A stretch of DNA of 64,000 bases, taken from Klebsiella pneumoniae. GTDB lineage: Bacteria; Pseudomonadota; Gammaproteobacteria; Pseudomonadales; Pseudohongiellaceae. The translations under genes and the position numbers were made by a program. Below, piece after piece: positions 42,979 to 49,653 of this stretch (positions are counted from its first letter, which is position 1; every line of letters begins with the position of its first letter). The notes beneath the pieces were generated by a model. The model worked only from the letters and a program-made list of their open reading frames with translations, did no database searches and was not told the DNA's origin. Location of the stretch: contig CAMBPO010000001.1 of assembly GCA_945869725.1 (NCBI GenBank), forward strand, positions 86,717 to 150,716, written 5' to 3'.

Positions 42979-43155
42979 ATGTATATTCCGCCATCCACAC
43001 TGATTTTTCTGGTTTTCAGCTACCTGCTGTTCCTGCTCAGCGTGGAATGGTCGATGCAGCCCCATGGGGCATGGTATCGCCCACTGCTGATCTGTTTTGT
43101 TGTCATCGCCCTGGCCGCCTGGTCATTCCGGGAACAAAACGCCGATGACCTTTGA
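42979..43155 (+). CDS. cbrX: CbrX-like small membrane protein
   Basis: This 58-residue ORF has two predicted membrane helices (about residues 7-22 and 34-49) and a charged tail (REQNADDL). In Pseudomonas a small membrane ORF called cbrX lies between gluQ and cbrA and is translationally coupled to cbrA. Here the position, size and topology match, and the cbrA ATG at 43145 lies inside its last codons, overlapping by 11 bases. Its function is not known. Confidence 0.75.
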   Translation: MYIPPSTLIFLVFSYLLFLLSVEWSMQPHGAWYRPLLICFVVIALAAWSFREQNADDL

Positions 43156-46072
43156 GTTAAGTACATTATTTGCGTTGGGAGTGGGTTACCTGATCATTCT
43201 TTTCGGGATCGCCTACATTACCGAGCGCGGTTGGATACCCGAACGTGTTGTCAGACATCCTGTGGTTTACGTACTGTCACTGGGCGTGTTTGCCAGTGTG
43301 TGGTCGTATTACGCGTCAACCGGCAACGCATTCCGTGATGGTTATGGATATCTGGCGCCCTTTATTGGCATATCCATGGCGTTTTTGTTATCACCGTTGT
43401 TACTGCGGCCTATCCTGAATCTCACCAAAACTTACCAACTCAGCTCCCTCGCTGACTTGTTATCCTTCAGGTATCGCAGTCCATGGGCGGGCACACTGAC
43501 CACCTTGGTCATGTTACTGGTGGTGATGCCGCTGTTGTCCTTGCAGATTCAGGCGGTTGCCACCACCGTCAGCCTGCTGTCACCCGACGCTTCAGAGACA
43601 ACACTGGCGATCACGTTTTGCCTGTTGATTACGCTGTTTTCAATCTTTTTCGGAACCGGCAAAGGCTCCGGCAGAGAACGTCATGAAGGACTGGTTATGA
43701 CCATCGCATTTGAGTCCCTGGTCAAATTGGTGGCGCTGCTGGCCGTGGGCTTTTTTGCAATCTACAAAGGCTTCGGCAGTTTTGATCTCATGGAGCAATG
43801 GGTCAGAGAACAACCGGAACTGCTGCGAAGAATCAAAGAGCCTGCGCCTCCTGGGACCTTCCAGATCATGGTACTGGTTTTTTTCAGCGCCGCCGTCGCG
43901 ACCCCGCAGATGTTTTATATGACCTTCCATGAAAACAACCACCCCCGCGCGCTCAGCGTCGCCAGCTGGGGCCTGCCGTTGTATTTCCTGCTGTTAAGCC
44001 TGCCAGTGTTACCTATCCTCTGGGCCGGTTTACGCTCTGGGGCTCTGTCACCCATGGAGTATTATCCGGTCACTCTGGGTACATACTATGATTCTGAGCT
44101 GTTTACCCTTATTGGTTTTATCGGCGGCATGTCTGCAGCCAGTGGCCTGATCATCGTGATAACACTGGCACTGTCTACGATGTGCCTGAACCACCTGATT
44201 CTGCCGGTGTGGCAACCCAGTGCGCGCCAGGATATCTATCGCTGGTTATTGTGGAAACGTCGGGCACTGATCGCCGCATTGATCTGGGGTGGCTTTCTGT
44301 TTTATTACATGCCTTCCGACGACCAGAGCATCAGAGCCGTCAGCAGTATTGGTCTGATCGGCAGCCTGCAGTTCCTGCCGGCCATTGTTGCGTTACTGTA
44401 CTGGCCCAAAGGTAACAAGAAAGGATTCATGGCCGGCCTCGCCGCAGGAACGGCCGTCTGGTTTGTCTTTCTGGTACTGCCCGTGGCATCAGGCACCAAT
44501 TTCTTTACCCTGGGTAACATGAATACCCGCGAAATTGTTGTGCTGTCGCTGATCTGCAATATTGCCCTATTTATGCTGGTTTCGCTGTTGACACGTAGCT
44601 CGACTGAGGAACGGATATCTGCCGATATCTGCTCGGTTGACAACCTCCGACGCCAGCGACGGGCAGGACTCACAGCAAGTTCACCGCAGGAGTTTATTGC
44701 CCAGCTGACCAAACCTTTGGGGGAGCGCACTGCTACACGAGAGGTCATGCAGGCACTTCGTGATCTCAATATGGATAAACAGGACAACCGGCCACAGGCC
44801 CTGCGCCAGCTGCGCAGTCGCCTAGAAGCAAACCTGTCCGGATTGCTGGGGCCAGCAATCGCACATGATTTGATTGACAGATTTCTGCCATTTACCTCCA
44901 CCAAGGAAAGTGTCTCGGCAGACGTGACGGCTATCGAAAGCCGTATCGAAGCGTACCGAAGCAATTTGTCAGGCATGGCCGCTGATCTGGACAACCTGCG
45001 GCGTTATCATCGGCAGATATTGATGGATCTGCCGCTGGGCGTCTGCTCTCTGGGCCCCGACGACCAGATCATTATGTGGAACCATGCCATGGAGACGCTG
45101 ACGGGCATTACGACCGAGGAAGCTGTTGGTATGCATCTGAGTGAAATCGGCAACCCCTGGTACAAACTCTTGAACCAGTTTTTACACGGTGAAACGGCAC
45201 ATCAGCACAAACTGACAATCAACGTGAATGGCGGAAAACGTTACATCAGTCTGCATAAAGCGGTGATTGAAAAATCCACCAGCCGACGTATTGAGCAGGA
45301 CGGCATCATTGTCCTCCTGGAAGATCTGACAGAAACCGAGTTGCTGGAAGAAGAACTGGCACACAGCGAGCGCCTGGCATCCATTGGCCGGCTTGCGGCC
45401 GGGGTAGCCCACGAGATTGGTAATCCCATCACTGGCATTGCCTGCCTGGCCCAGAATATCAGAGATGAAACATCCAACGACGAGTTGCGCAGCATGGCAA
45501 AACAGATCATTGAACAGACCGACCGTACCTCCCGCATTGTGCAGTCACTGGTCAATTTTGCCCACAGCGGCAGCCACAACAAAGCTGACCAGCGGCATGA
45601 AGTTGTGCTGGCCGCAGCGTGTATTGATGAAGCAATTGCACTGATCTCTCTCAACAAGAAGGGCAAACACATGCACTTTGATGTGCACTCTGAGCCAAAT
45701 GCCCGCATACTCGGGGACTCACAGCAGTTGCTGCAGGTGTTGGTGAATCTGATAAACAACGCACGCGACGCCAGCCCTGCAGAGAGCACTATTCGTATCG
45801 ACTGTGAACGCATCGCCGCGTCGATACAGATCAGTGTCGCCGATGAAGGCAGTGGTATCCCCGAGGCCATTCGTGACCGGGTATTTGAGCCGTTTTTTAC
45901 CACCAAGGAACCCGGCGAAGGCACCGGTCTTGGTCTGGCACTGGTATACAGCCTGGTTGAAAACCTCGGAGGACATATTGATATAATGAATGCCACTGCT
46001 AAGCGGAATAACCCGGGCGCAAAAGTAGTGCTGAGTTTTCCTTGTTATGATGAGACACTAAACAAAAGCTGA
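43145..46072 (+). CDS. cbrA: Sensor histidine kinase CbrA (transporter-like sensor)
   Basis: This 975-residue kinase has an SSS/SLC5-type transporter domain of about 13 membrane helices (residues 1 to about 490), a linker with a STAC-like region, a PAS domain (about 615-735) and HisKA/HATPase. The phospho-acceptor is His756 in [14 protein letters not shown]-binding boxes are [16 protein letters not shown] and [12 protein letters not shown]. This architecture and the position before an NtrC-type regulator match CbrA of Pseudomonas, which senses carbon/nitrogen state and transports histidine in some strains. The ATG at 43145 overlaps cbrX; the frame start at 43097 is inside cbrX and rejected. 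Confidence 0.93.
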
Positions 46073-46121: not shown

Positions 46122-47513
46122 ATGACTGCACATTACAAAGTTCTGGTTGTAGAGGATGAACCGGTCATCCGCACTGCATTGCGCCGCCTGCTTGAACGCC
46201 ACGGCTATATCGTCAGTGAAGCCGGGTCCGTGAAGGAAGCTGTCGCAGTACTGGCCGAGAACAGCTTCAATATAGTCATCAGCGATCTGCGACTGCCGGG
46301 CGCCCCTGGCACCGATCTGATCAAAGCAACACGCACTCCGGTGCTGATTATGACCAGTTACTCCAGTTTGCGATCCGCCATTGACTCCATGAAACTGGGC
46401 GCGGTGGACTATATCCCCAAGCCGTTTGAACACGAAGAGATGCTGCAAACCGTCGAGCGCATTATCAAAGACAATGCCGGCAAAAATGTTGCACCAAAAT
46501 CGGTAGAACCACCGCCAGAGCCGCCGGTTCCCGGCATGATCGGCAGCTGTCCGCAAATGATGGAATTGTTCCGTCGCATACGCAAAGTCGCACAGACCAG
46601 CTCAACCGTGCTGATTAATGGTGAATCGGGTACCGGTAAAGAACTGGTGGCGCGCGCCATTCATCAGTTAAGCGATCGCAAAGACTCGGAAATGATTTCG
46701 GTCAACTGTGCAGCTATTCCTGAAAATCTCATCGAATCCGAGCTATTCGGACATGAAAAAGGCGCCTTCACGGGTGCAACTGCCAACCGCACCGGGCTGG
46801 TGGAAGCCGCAAACAGCAGCACCTTGTTTCTGGATGAAATTGGCGAGTTGCCATTGGATGCTCAGGCTAGGCTGCTGCGTGTTCTGCAGGAAAGCGAAAT
46901 ACGAAAAGTGGGTTCTGTGCAATCCCGCAAAGTTGATGTAAGACTGGTGGTTGCCACCCACCGCGATCTCAAACAATTGGTGATTGATGGTGAATTCCGC
47001 GAAGATCTGTATTACCGCATTAACGTCATGGCGCTGCTGATACCGCCACTGAAAGAACGCGGTAACGACATCCTTGAGCTCGCGGATGCCATTCTGGAGC
47101 GCACCTGCAAACGGCTCAAGTCACCGCTGCTGTATTTCACCAATGATGCCACACAAGCGATTTCCACCTATCCATGGCCGGGGAACGTGCGCGAACTAGA
47201 AAACGCGATTGAACGGGCAGTGGTATTGGCGGAATCCGAAGAGATCGGGGCAGAATTGCTGGCCATCGACCTGACGGGTAATAAACGCACCATACGGCCA
47301 TTGATCGAGCGATCCATGATTGATCAGCACAGCGCGGATGAGACTGACGCTGCGGAAGAGCTGTCTCTCGAAGACTATTTTCAGAAGTTTGTCCTTGAAC
47401 ATCAGGACCAGATGAATGAAACCCAGTTGGCCAAAAAACTGGGCATCAGCCGCAAATGCCTGTGGGAGCGCCGCCAGCGATTCGGCCTGCCCCGCAAAAA
47501 GAAACACGCTTAA
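46122..47513 (+). CDS. cbrB: Sigma-54-dependent response regulator CbrB (NtrC family)
   Basis: This 463-residue regulator has a receiver domain (phospho-acceptor Asp55, acidic pocket Glu11/Asp12), an AAA+ domain with Walker A GESGTGKE and the sigma-54 contact GAFTGA, and a C-terminal Fis-type HTH (NETQLAKKLGISRKCLWERR). It lies 49 bases after cbrA. In Pseudomonas CbrB activates crcZ from a sigma-54 promoter immediately downstream. The same arrangement is visible here, with half-sites and a -24/-12 promoter in the following gap. Confidence 0.95.
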   Translation: MTAHYKVLVVEDEPVIRTALRRLLERHGYIVSEAGSVKEAVAVLAENSFNIVISDLRLPGAPGTDLIKATRTPVLIMTSYSSLRSAIDSMKLGAVDYIPKPFEHEEMLQTVERIIKDNAGKNVAPKSVEPPPEPPVPGMIGSCPQMMELFRRIRKVAQTSSTVLINGESGTGKELVARAIHQLSDRKDSEMISVNCAAIPENLIESELFGHEKGAFTGATANRTGLVEAANSSTLFLDEIGELPLDAQARLLRVLQESEIRKVGSVQSRKVDVRLVVATHRDLKQLVIDGEFREDLYYRINVMALLIPPLKERGNDILELADAILERTCKRLKSPLLYFTNDATQAISTYPWPGNVRELENAIERAVVLAESEEIGAELLAIDLTGNKRTIRPLIERSMIDQHSADETDAAEELSLEDYFQKFVLEHQDQMNETQLAKKLGISRKCLWERRQRFGLPRKKKHA

Positions 47514-47516
47514 AAC

Positions 47517-47563
47517 TGTTACCGATACCCATCTACTCATTTTGTAAGAGTGTTTTAGTAACA
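47517..47563 (+). promoter_or_regulatory. Candidate CbrB-binding half-sites upstream of the crcZ-like promoter
   Basis: TGTTAC (47517-47522) and its exact reverse complement GTAACA (47558-47563) lie 100-146 bases before the predicted start at about 47663, the usual distance for an NtrC-type enhancer. The second half-site is also part of a GTGTT-N5-AACAC inverted repeat (47550-47564). As I recall, CbrB sites in Pseudomonas use this TGTTAC/GTAACA type of half-site; I could not check this. Confidence 0.5.
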
Positions 47564-47636
47564 CTTGCTACTCAAACACAGATTTCCGCCCCCCCATAAA
47601 ATCATATCTTGTTGTTATATATATGCTTTGTCATTG

Positions 47637-47652
47637 TGGCACGCTAAATGCT
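47637..47652 (+). promoter_or_regulatory. Sigma-54 (-24/-12) promoter of the crcZ-like RNA
   Basis: TGGCACG-N4-ATGCT matches the sigma-54 consensus TGGCACG-N4-TTGCW with the invariant GG (47638-47639) and GC (47650-47651) exactly 10 bases apart. Only one base of the -12 element differs. It sits 124 bases after cbrB and faces the A-rich non-coding region; transcription should start near 47663. Confidence 0.82.
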
Positions 47653-47662
47653 TTAGTCGTCT

Positions 47663-47911
47663 TACAATAAGAAAAAGAAATAATAAAAATAACGACGCAT
47701 AACAAAAAAAATAGCATCAAAAATTGGTGCTCAAAAATAATAAAAATAATCAGATCGGGCGAGCAGACAAAAATAAGCGTATTGCGTAATTACTGCTGGT
47801 ACTGATGAACAAACTAGCGCACTTGACTTGAGTGCCTACTTAAGAAGAACAAAAAAAACAATAATAACAATAAAACATACCTTCCTTGCGGGGGGGTCAA
47901 GTCACCCCCCA
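47663..47911 (+). ncRNA. crcZ: CrcZ-like small RNA (predicted Hfq/Crc decoy)
   Basis: This non-coding stretch of about 250 bases lies between cbrB and pcnB, the position of crcZ in Pseudomonas. It starts at a sigma-54 promoter and holds five A-rich tracts of the A-R-N or AAnAAnAA type: 47664-47692, 47701-47713, 47733-47750, 47767-47776 and 47842-47877. The last contains AACAATAATAACAATAAAA, a near-perfect catabolite-activity motif. Small hairpins lie between tracts, for example AGCATC/GGTGCT (47713-47731). CrcZ in Pseudomonas is longer (about 400 bases) and binds Hfq and Crc to relieve repression. The 3' end is uncertain: a G/C hairpin ends at 47910 but no U tract follows, so the RNA may extend towards pcnB. 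Sequence identity with known crcZ was not tested. Confidence 0.72.
47890..47910 (+). terminator. G/C hairpin at the possible 3' end of the crcZ-like RNA
   Basis: GGGGGGT (47891-47897) and ACCCCCC (47904-47910) form a 7-bp stem with a 6-base loop. There is no run of T after it, so it is not a standard intrinsic terminator; it may be a pause, a processing or stability hairpin. The remaining gap (47911-48057) before pcnB shows no ORF or clear promoter. Confidence 0.35.
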
Positions 47912-48057
47912 GAGCATTTCCCCTGCACACATTCCATACTTCAGTGTATTATTGCCGCCTCTGTCGCTGACGATGTCTGCGTCAACAACAAGCTGTTATG
48001 TCTGTATCCAATTGAGCTTGTGTCCATCAACAGAAGTGACCTTGAGCTAGACACCTG

Positions 48058-49653
48058 ATGATTAAGAAGCTGGTAAAAATGCTTTTTGGCAAGTCCGGCC
48101 AAAGCGGCAGCGGTGTCACTGAAAAACCTGACGCCAAAAAAGCAGAACCACGCCAGAAGCCATTACCGGCAGAGCCAAAACGCCGGTCACCACGCAACCC
48201 GCACAACACCCGTATTGAGCAGCCCTCCGCGCAGCCCGCCAGAACAGGCAATCTTGGCGCAGCGCATGGACGCAGTGAGCTGCCCGCCGCGCTGCGCAAA
48301 CTGGATCTGAGTAACGTTCAGGTGGTAGCACGCGAAGATCACAACATTTCACGTCGCGATATTTCCCCCAATGCGCTTAAAGTGCTTTATCGCCTCAATG
48401 AAGCGGGGTTTCAGGCTTTTCTGGTTGGTGGCGGAGTCCGTGACCTGTTACTGGGCGGCCACCCCAAGGACTTCGATATCTCCACGGATGCAACGCCAGA
48501 AGATGTCAGAGAGGTGTTTCGCAACTCACGTATTATCGGCCGGCGGTTCAAGATCACCCATGTGCGCTTCGGCCAGGAAATCATCGAAGTCACTACCTTC
48601 CGCGCCCATCATGAAATTGAAACCGAAGTCGAGGAAGGCGAATCGCGCCGCCACATCAGGGATCTGGATTCCGCACACTCAAGCACCGGTATGATCCTGC
48701 GCGACAATGTATATGGCAGCATCAATGAAGATGCCGTGCGCCGTGACTTTACCGTCAACGCGCTTTATTACACCGCTAATGGTTTCTGGTTACTGGATTT
48801 TGTGAATGGACTCAGTGACATCGAAGACCGGCTGATCCGTATGATCGGTGATCCGGAAACCCGATACAAAGAAGATCCGGTGCGCATACTACGTGCCATC
48901 CGGCTGGCAGCCAAACTGGATTTCCGCATTCACAAAGACACTGAGGCCCCGATCGCCCGACTGGCCATTCTGTTGGAGTCAATTTCCCCGGCGCGTCTGT
49001 TTGATGAAACAGTGAAACTGTTTACCGGGGGCCAGGCCGAAGCAACCTTCGAACTGCTGCGCCGTTACAAGGTGGCCGATTACCTGTTCAAACCCACACT
49101 ACGCTGCCTGGGCGATAAAAACTCCACCGACAGCAGACTGGTACAACTGGCACTGCAAAACACCGACAAACGTCTGGCAGACGGCAAATCCGTGACACCG
49201 GCTTTTTTGTACGCGGCCTTGCTGTGGCCAGCCATGCAGGCGATCTTGCGTGAACAGTTCCAGGATCGCCTGGCACCGTTAGCGGCCATGCAGGATGCGG
49301 CCACTGACACGATTCTTGAGCAGCTGAGATTTACCGCCATCCCCAAACGCTTCACCGCCGTGATGCGCGAGATATGGGAATTACAATGGCGTATGCAACC
49401 TCAAAGTCGCAAACAGGTTGAAAGCGTGATTGCACATCCACGCTTCAGAGCAGCTTACGATTTTCTATTGTTGCGCGAAGAATCCGGTGAGCAATTGGAC
49501 AATGCCGGCGACTGGTGGACGCAATACCAGCTGGCCGATCGCGCTGGGCAGGAAGTCATGATCGAAGCATTGAGCAACATCAAACCACCGCGCAAACGCC
49601 GTCGCAAACCCAGATCATCATCGGCACCGAGGGTGGAGCAGGCCAGTGATTAA
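48058..49653 (+). CDS. pcnB: Poly(A) polymerase I
   Basis: This 531-residue enzyme adds poly(A) tails to RNA and promotes decay. The nucleotidyltransferase core has LVGGGVRDLLLGGHPKDFDI (split by the catalytic D-x-D), then RRFKITHVRFG, and RRDFTVNALYY. The N-terminal 90 residues are basic and disordered, as is the Arg/Lys-rich C-terminus, both typical. The ATG at 48058 follows the crcZ-like region, and the stop overlaps the kinase gene start by 8 bases. In Pseudomonas pcnB is also next to crcZ. Confidence 0.95.
   Translation: MIKKLVKMLFGKSGQSGSGVTEKPDAKKAEPRQKPLPAEPKRRSPRNPHNTRIEQPSAQPARTGNLGAAHGRSELPAALRKLDLSNVQVVAREDHNISRRDISPNALKVLYRLNEAGFQAFLVGGGVRDLLLGGHPKDFDISTDATPEDVREVFRNSRIIGRRFKITHVRFGQEIIEVTTFRAHHEIETEVEEGESRRHIRDLDSAHSSTGMILRDNVYGSINEDAVRRDFTVNALYYTANGFWLLDFVNGLSDIEDRLIRMIGDPETRYKEDPVRILRAIRLAAKLDFRIHKDTEAPIARLAILLESISPARLFDETVKLFTGGQAEATFELLRRYKVADYLFKPTLRCLGDKNSTDSRLVQLALQNTDKRLADGKSVTPAFLYAALLWPAMQAILREQFQDRLAPLAAMQDAATDTILEQLRFTAIPKRFTAVMREIWELQWRMQPQSRKQVESVIAHPRFRAAYDFLLLREESGEQLDNAGDWWTQYQLADRAGQEVMIEALSNIKPPRKRRRKPRSSSAPRVEQASD

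Follow-up and report, generated by a model that had tools for sequence, protein, structure and literature searches.

In the 64-kb window, by which we mean the whole stretch of DNA that was analysed, a gap of 544 nt separates the end of a cbrB-like gene at 47513 from the start of pcnB at 48058, both genes being on the plus strand. The cbrB-like gene (46122..47513) encodes a response regulator and sigma-54 activator with receiver and AAA+ domains (Pfam Response_reg, Sigma54_activat). The pcnB product (48058..49653), a poly(A) polymerase, matches TIGR01942 (NCBIfam) with 499 bits, above the cut-off. Upstream, at 43097..46072 on the same strand, a cbrA-like gene encodes a sensor kinase with a transporter-like N-terminus followed by PAS, HisKA and HATPase domains (Pfam), of which residues 16-601 match PDB 10ed_A with 642 bits. 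The code 10ed occurs once in the accessible part of a preprint on the structure of Pseudomonas CbrA (PMC13022988), and we take 10ed_A to be that CbrA structure. The domain and NCBIfam matches of both neighbours of the gap confirmed the crcZ-like place between cbrB and pcnB that a sequence-only reading of the window had assigned to it. Farther downstream a deoxynucleoside kinase gene (PF01712, 49646-50296) sits between pcnB and panB, in the place that folK occupies in Pseudomonas. In family f8, an ORF that is folK-like by eye follows pcnB.

The gap contains no ORF of at least 80 aa wholly inside it, as had been noted before, and the longest ORF on the RNA strand has 44 codons with a TTG start; a protein-coding reading of the gap is thereby ruled out. 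Two minus-strand ORFs (47196-47564 and 48027-48299) overlap its ends. The lineage was assessed by scanning named genomes with CbrB, which is 99% identical to that of the nearest genome, a Gammaproteobacteria MAG; several Pseudohongiella records are among the next matches. CbrB counterparts in the other families listed share 53-67% identity with it. By this identity scan the lineage is Pseudohongiella-like, in line with the earlier statement that the rest of the window does not look like Pseudomonas. Families are referred to by codes, f1 being that of the window and the codes of the order sample running to f47; the sampled order probably corresponds to the Pseudomonadales of GTDB.

A sigma-54 promoter, TGGCAC-N5-ATGCT (TGGCACGCTAAATGCT), is predicted at 47637..47652 on the plus strand. 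With a score of 10 out of 11 it is the sole -24/-12 site in the window to reach that value, 16 other sites (7 plus, 9 minus) scoring 9. Thus the promoter proposed in the sequence-only reading is the best of the whole window, and its geometry agrees with the +1 at 47663 that was predicted with it. Upstream of the promoter, motif matching identified two putative CbrB half-sites on the plus strand, one of the F type (TGTTAC, 47517..47522) and one of the R type (GTAACA, 47558..47563), the latter ca. 80 nt before the -24 element. According to the accessible part of PMC6296734, the subsites bound by P. putida CbrB at the crcZ and crcY promoters are TGTTAC (F) and GTAACA (R). The placing of the two half-sites was nearly constant in the Pseudohongiella group: counted from the -24 box, 34 of 36 rows have TGTTAC at -119 to -121 together with GTAACA at either -79 or -80, the deviating rows being L079 and L082. 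Six loci of f21 that occupy the crcZ position have the F site at -124 or -125, except L174 with -113; R1 falls between -102 and -104 and R2 between -80 and -82 in all six. The middle half-site R1 of Pseudomonas is not recognisable upstream of the window RNA, where F and one R stand at the conserved distance. The R site near -80 was found again across many families, not in all.

The promoter pattern was present in 37 of 40 distinct cbrB-pcnB gaps, of which 36 are tabulated as rows; the remaining one, L083, lacks the stem pattern. It was absent from L081 and L084 (Parendozoicomonas) and from L098 (Halomonas litopenaei) among the 40. In L098 a variant, AGGCAC-N5-CTGC, precedes A-rich sequence.

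Behind the predicted +1 the plus strand is rich in A-tracts of the Hfq type. Five of the seven plus-strand (AAN)4+ runs of the window fall in 47666-47874, while the three minus-strand runs all lie elsewhere. They form four tracts on the plus strand: tract 1 at 47666..47693, composed of two adjoining runs (47666-47680 and 47682-47693), tract 2 at 47701..47715, tract 3 at 47733..47750, and tract 4, the longest, at 47842..47874. In 47663-47890, (AAN)4+ runs cover 90 bases as compared to 9.7 ± 9.9 in dinucleotide shuffles, none of 2000 reaching 90, and (ARN)4+ runs cover 93 bases as compared to 17.7 ± 12.6 (0/2000). With five (ARN)4+ runs in 47666-47874, within ca. 250 nt, the number and the Hfq character of the five Hfq/Crc-type tracts announced earlier stand; the Crc part of that label does not, since no Crc-clade protein was found in the 59 genomes of the family.

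The tracts would belong to a CrcZ-like decoy RNA of ca. 250 nt, predicted at 47663..47910 on the plus strand from the family alignment and from a match to the Rfam CrcZ family RF01675. From the predicted +1 to the end of a GC stem it measures 248 nt, close to the 'shorter, about 250 bases' expected beforehand, and in the other family rows it measures 238-268 nt, except for L082 (353 nt). Three plus-strand hairpins and a closing stem are predicted: hairpin 1 (GCAUC...GGUGC) at 47713..47731, whose helix has 98.7% of cells paired; hairpin 2 at 47754..47806; hairpin 3 at 47815..47838, predicted in the window and outside the covariation count; and a closing G/C stem at 47890..47910. The folding z-score of 47663-47922 was -3.5.

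Covariation was examined in an alignment of 33 family sequences. Not included were L072, which nearly duplicates L030, and three more distant sequences (L079, L082 and L083). Over the 33 sequences 94.9% of the cells of the predicted helices were paired. Two-sided changes numbered 59, as compared to 20.3 ± 4.7 in shuffled alignments (0/500), and these values together with the z-score bear out the earlier claim of hairpins between the tracts. The measure 'further pair types' gave no excess over shuffles (212/500). Relatedness alone may lift sequences above shuffles even where there is no structure, and most weight is therefore given to a control with slid partners, which reached at most 0.115 against 0.327 for the predicted helices. 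It is helix 2, with the strongest covariation and two-sided changes in five of its seven pairs, that carries the case for the predicted structure.

Mean column identity in the family alignment was 59%. The invariant columns are mostly A or belong to the GC stem, and the segments between the tracts diverge while tracts and helices persist. This pattern bears on whether the RNA could instead be a base-pairing sRNA acting in trans, with the A-tracts as mere landing sites for Hfq and antisense action on mRNAs. Hfq-bound sRNAs usually act by pairing, and hairpins and inter-tract segments that could serve this are at hand. Divergence of those segments is, however, the opposite of what a conserved seed would give, and we regard antisense action as improbable.

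The 3' end deserves separate treatment. In the window no T-run follows the C-rich final stem, so no classical terminator marks the end of the RNA. A conserved AGAGCATTTC, not a T-run, follows the closing G/C stem (window 47890-47925) in most aligned family members. The lack of a T-run, together with a downstream pcnB of the same orientation at 28 of 30 family loci and at most of the order loci examined, would fit a sigma-54-driven A-rich 5' leader of pcnB, in which the GC stem is read through and Hfq regulates pcnB in cis. Against such a leader, the RNA of the 33 aligned members ends in a G/C stem that has 99.4% of its cells paired, and T-tails follow the stem in L016 and L029. Between the RNA and pcnB there is also a sigma-70-like site, TGCACA-17-TATTAT, at 47924..47952 on the plus strand, a possible pcnB promoter that by number is no more than chance (1 found, 1.4 expected); its TGTATTATT recurs in the cbrB-pcnB gaps of many relatives. 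The order-wide loci described below include four extra copies, in f14 and f45, whose fetched stretches lack both cbrB and pcnB, and in f39 (L147) the pcnB match begins only 1339 nt downstream. We consider a cis-acting pcnB leader unlikely and retain the separate decoy RNA as the preferred reading.

A search with the Rfam CrcZ covariance model had been suggested as a check, and its outcome was divided. At the Rfam gathering threshold RF01675 has no match in the window. With permissive filters on 1 kb, RF01675 was the top Rfam family, with 33.1 bits and an E-value of 6.9e-7 over the full model length at 47680-47946; the bias was 10.6 bits. The score is 62 bits under the cut-off of 95, and the RNA is hence called CrcZ-like and not a formal member of RF01675. 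Taken alone the match is weak; its place is the decisive test.

At E<=10, RF01675 matched 38 of the 59 family genomes, always below the cut-off, and had no match in the other 21. Weak matches at this setting also occurred in 4 of 14 control genomes. For the family loci that were fetched, 28 of 30 matches lie between cbrB and pcnB with pcnB on the same strand, the exceptions being L036 and L038; absence from close relatives, which had been named as a refuting result, is thus not what was found. In 31 of the 59 genomes, genera g2 and g3 among them, no RF01675 match was shown in the gap. Synteny was checked for five of these genomes (G009, G015, G024, G034 and G035), and all five pass.

When the search was extended to the order at E<=1e-3, 72 of 390 genomes and none of the 14 controls had a match. 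Only 19 of the 72 exceeded the cut-off, 16 in f21 and 3 in f2, which indicates that many such RNAs escape the model and its cut-off; f21 is taken as Pseudomonadaceae because of its best scores (268-368 bits). Among the 82 matches listed, 54 loci were scored. A -24/-12 site with a score of at least 8 was present within 150 nt at 53 of them, L168 having none in the searched stretch, and cbrB upstream and/or pcnB downstream was found in the fetched stretch at 47. The other seven comprise two second copies of Pseudomonas (f21), the four f14 and f45 loci, and L146. The four loci L150 and L153 (f14) and L156 and L157 (f45) carry extra CrcZ-like copies with -24/-12 promoters. In f8 (L143-L145) the promoter, a CrcZ-like RNA and pcnB are present and no cbrB was found in ca. 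3 kb upstream; the genomes of these loci have a CbrB match at another place. Across 369 genomes of the class there were six RF01675 matches, two of them being the order genomes G001 and G079 and four being weak (20.7-29.7 bits). None of these four has cbrB or pcnB in the stretch as fetched, and no case outside the order was therefore accepted.

A second survey started from CbrB and is independent of Rfam. CbrB was found at E<=1e-130 in 285 of 390 order genomes, and 40 further loci were chosen for CbrB and family spread; L327 was dropped at a contig end, leaving 39 gaps, none of which has an RF01675 match among those listed at E<=1e-3. To pass, a gap needed a -24/-12 site with a score of at least 9 and, in the 330 nt behind it, (AAN)4+ runs covering 24 nt or more. 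By this rule 36 of the 39 gaps passed, the failures being L316, L326 and L330, and in 27 of the 36 GTAAC[AG] occurs 77-83 nt before the promoter. Controls for the same rule gave no passes, either in shuffled gaps (0/1950, 39 x 50) or in cbrB coding sequences (0/39). When RF01675 loci and CbrB-chosen gaps were combined, CrcZ-like anatomy was present in 28 of the 29 coded families examined in the order, with f9 failing. The suggestion of a diverged CrcZ in another lineage is accordingly upheld as to the CrcZ-like RNA gene, but the window is no lone outlier.

These surveys also bear on whether the gap could be an AT-rich spacer without an RNA gene, its Rfam match reflecting composition. The score under the cut-off, the high bias and the weak matches in 4 of 14 controls at lax settings are what such a spacer would give. 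At E<=1e-3, however, the controls are empty and the matches fall at one syntenic place, the (AAN) phasing beats all 2000 shuffles, the helices covary and shuffled gaps never pass. A composition-only null reading is rejected by the shuffles, synteny and covariation, and we give a spacer without an RNA gene hardly any credence. A CrcZ-like RNA gene is instead well supported by the predicted promoter, half-sites, tracts and hairpins, by synteny, and by the hfq and rpoN genes of relatives.

The presence of hfq, rpoN and crc was examined in genomes of relatives, the nearest of which, G001, shares 30% of sampled words with the window. Of the 59 family genomes, 57 have an Hfq match above the cut-off and all have RpoN. 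The Hfq proteins of G001, G042, G012 and G025 keep Y25, I30, L32, Q33 and Q52, which the accessible part of PMC6422490 gives as residues of the A- and R-sites on the distal side of Hfq. Residue 49 is Ala in the family members L382-L385 and L189 and Thr in L186-L188; in P. aeruginosa Hfq, Thr49 touches Crc in one assembly, according to the same part of that source (PMC6422490).

Results for Crc, the usual partner protein in this type of repression, were different. Four proteins with the PF03372 domain were found in each of four family genomes, and the likeliest Crc candidate in G001 matches the exodeoxyribonuclease PDB 2jc5 with 309 bits as compared to 238 bits for Crc (4jg3). Tree building placed the Crc-like proteins of ten families in a single clade (19 rows, support 100/99), whose members have changed active-site residues and carry a basic patch of the KRRKRR type at residues 135-141, which are RNA contacts of Crc according to the portion of PMC6422490 available. 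Proteins of the window family fall outside this clade and have all five catalytic residues intact. A search with a Crc alignment gave 68 matches in 56 of the 59 family genomes. The best match scored 250-356 bits in 31 of these, and all 31 proteins lie outside the Crc clade and are intact ExoIII enzymes (EDNDH). For the other 25 genomes the best score was in the xth-type range (110-184 bits); one of these proteins, from G009, was read. No Crc-clade protein was thus found in the 59 family genomes, for which the 31 best candidates and that of G009 were read. As regards the earlier proposal to check for both genes, hfq is present in nearly all relatives but a Crc-clade protein was not found. Four of the 25 low-scoring genomes (G019, G036, G040 and G056) nevertheless have the RNA in the gap. 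An order-wide Crc search matched 315 of 390 genomes at E<=1e-30 and was left out of the counts because the E-values of long-branch Crc and intact ExoIII overlap. The f24 genome G321 has both Crc-clade and intact-enzyme kinds. According to the part of PMC9788540 available, Alcanivorax is without a Crc homologue.

The basic patch itself is not confined to the Crc clade. In genus g1 it is absent from all fetched proteins, and in genus g4 (G013, G030, G035 and G043; L220, L221, L222 and L225) an RRKRRE patch occurs on an intact ExoIII paralogue. One intact enzyme of f13 (L194) and one of f22 (L195) carry a like patch (RRKRRE/KRKRRD). Such intact paralogues with a Crc-type patch are possible evolutionary intermediates.

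Candidate mRNA targets were sought in G042, a genome of the Pseudohongiella group. Searching for AAYAAYAAYAAY yielded 27 sites, including several within the RNA, as compared to 19 for the reversed control. Candidate targets are not clearly in excess by this pattern in G042; some sites overlap start codons. At L357, L361, L364 and L379, AAY tracts lie right at start codons and the proteins begin with MNNNN or VNNNN. These four may be Hfq targets.

Taken together, we assign a probability of about 0.87 to the reading that the gap holds a CbrB/sigma-54-induced, CrcZ-like small RNA that serves as a decoy for Hfq, probably Crc-free. Poor carbon supply would be sensed by CbrA, which would activate CbrB. 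CbrB could then bind the TGTTAC and GTAACA half-sites, which lie ca. 120 and ca. 80 nt before the -24 box, and fire the promoter together with RpoN. In the resulting RNA of ca. 250 nt, hairpins between the ARN-repeat tracts would keep the tracts single-stranded and available to the distal face of several Hfq hexamers. Hfq would in this way be drawn off the A-rich leaders of catabolic mRNAs and repression would be relieved, just as CrcZ of Pseudomonas lifts carbon catabolite repression by sequestering Hfq. From the analogy to CrcZ we infer that the RNA is transcribed in dependence on CbrB and RpoN, binds and titrates Hfq, and has this physiological role. Since no Crc-clade protein was found in the family, the decoy of Pseudohongiella would most likely target Hfq by itself or together with some other partner.

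A more tentative proposal concerns the origin of the system. CbrAB-CrcZ could be ancestral to the whole order with Hfq alone as its first target, Crc having arisen later when an active ExoIII paralogue gained the RNA-contacting patch, as in g4, f13 and f22, and lost catalysis; Pseudohongiella would then be a living Crc-free form. This scenario is possible and we hold it to be doubtful. If the RNA is transcribed, what appeared as a Pseudomonas speciality becomes an old and widespread control of carbon use. A lineage without Crc would also permit a direct test of Hfq titration by CrcZ in the absence of Crc.

CbrAB and the cbrA-cbrB-crcZ arrangement have been called exclusive to Pseudomonadaceae (PMC6296734 and PMC8871633, accessible parts). 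No description of a CrcZ outside this family was found, as judged by titles and the beginnings of abstracts, subscription journals being mostly outside the scope, and the portion of PMC5073097 available describes none. What is new here is a recognisable, predicted decoy RNA of the CbrB and Hfq type in a Pseudohongiella-like lineage and in the 28 of 29 coded families. Like CrcZ of P. aeruginosa and P. putida, it would be encoded between cbrB and pcnB behind a sigma-54 promoter, with TGTTAC and GTAACA half-sites at similar distances, several tracts of at least four ARN repeats between hairpins, and a GC-rich final stem. CrcZ of P. aeruginosa PAO1 is 407 nt long, has six (ARN)n tracts with n of at least 4 and titrates Hfq (PMC4063720, accessible part). 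Unlike CrcZ, the window RNA has ca. 250 instead of ca. 400 nt and is thus ca. 150 nt shorter, scores 33 bits with RF01675 against a cut-off of 95, has two recognisable CbrB half-sites instead of three (F1, R1 and R2), and ends without a T-run terminator in a family in which no Crc-clade protein was found. CrcY and CrcX of Pseudomonas and Azotobacter are likewise activated by CbrB and bind Hfq/Crc as CrcZ does, according to the available parts of PMC6296734 and PMC8871633. They lie elsewhere in the genome, as the second copies in f21 do, whereas here one copy is known, at the cbrB-pcnB place; the extra copies of f14 and f45 with their sigma-54 promoters resemble CrcY and CrcX. RsmY/RsmZ and CsrB/CsrC have been compared with CrcZ as protein-titrating RNAs (PMC4063720, accessible part). 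The window RNA, as predicted here, would share this titrating logic with them. RsmY/RsmZ and CsrB/CsrC bind RsmA/CsrA via GGA loops, not Hfq via ARN tracts.
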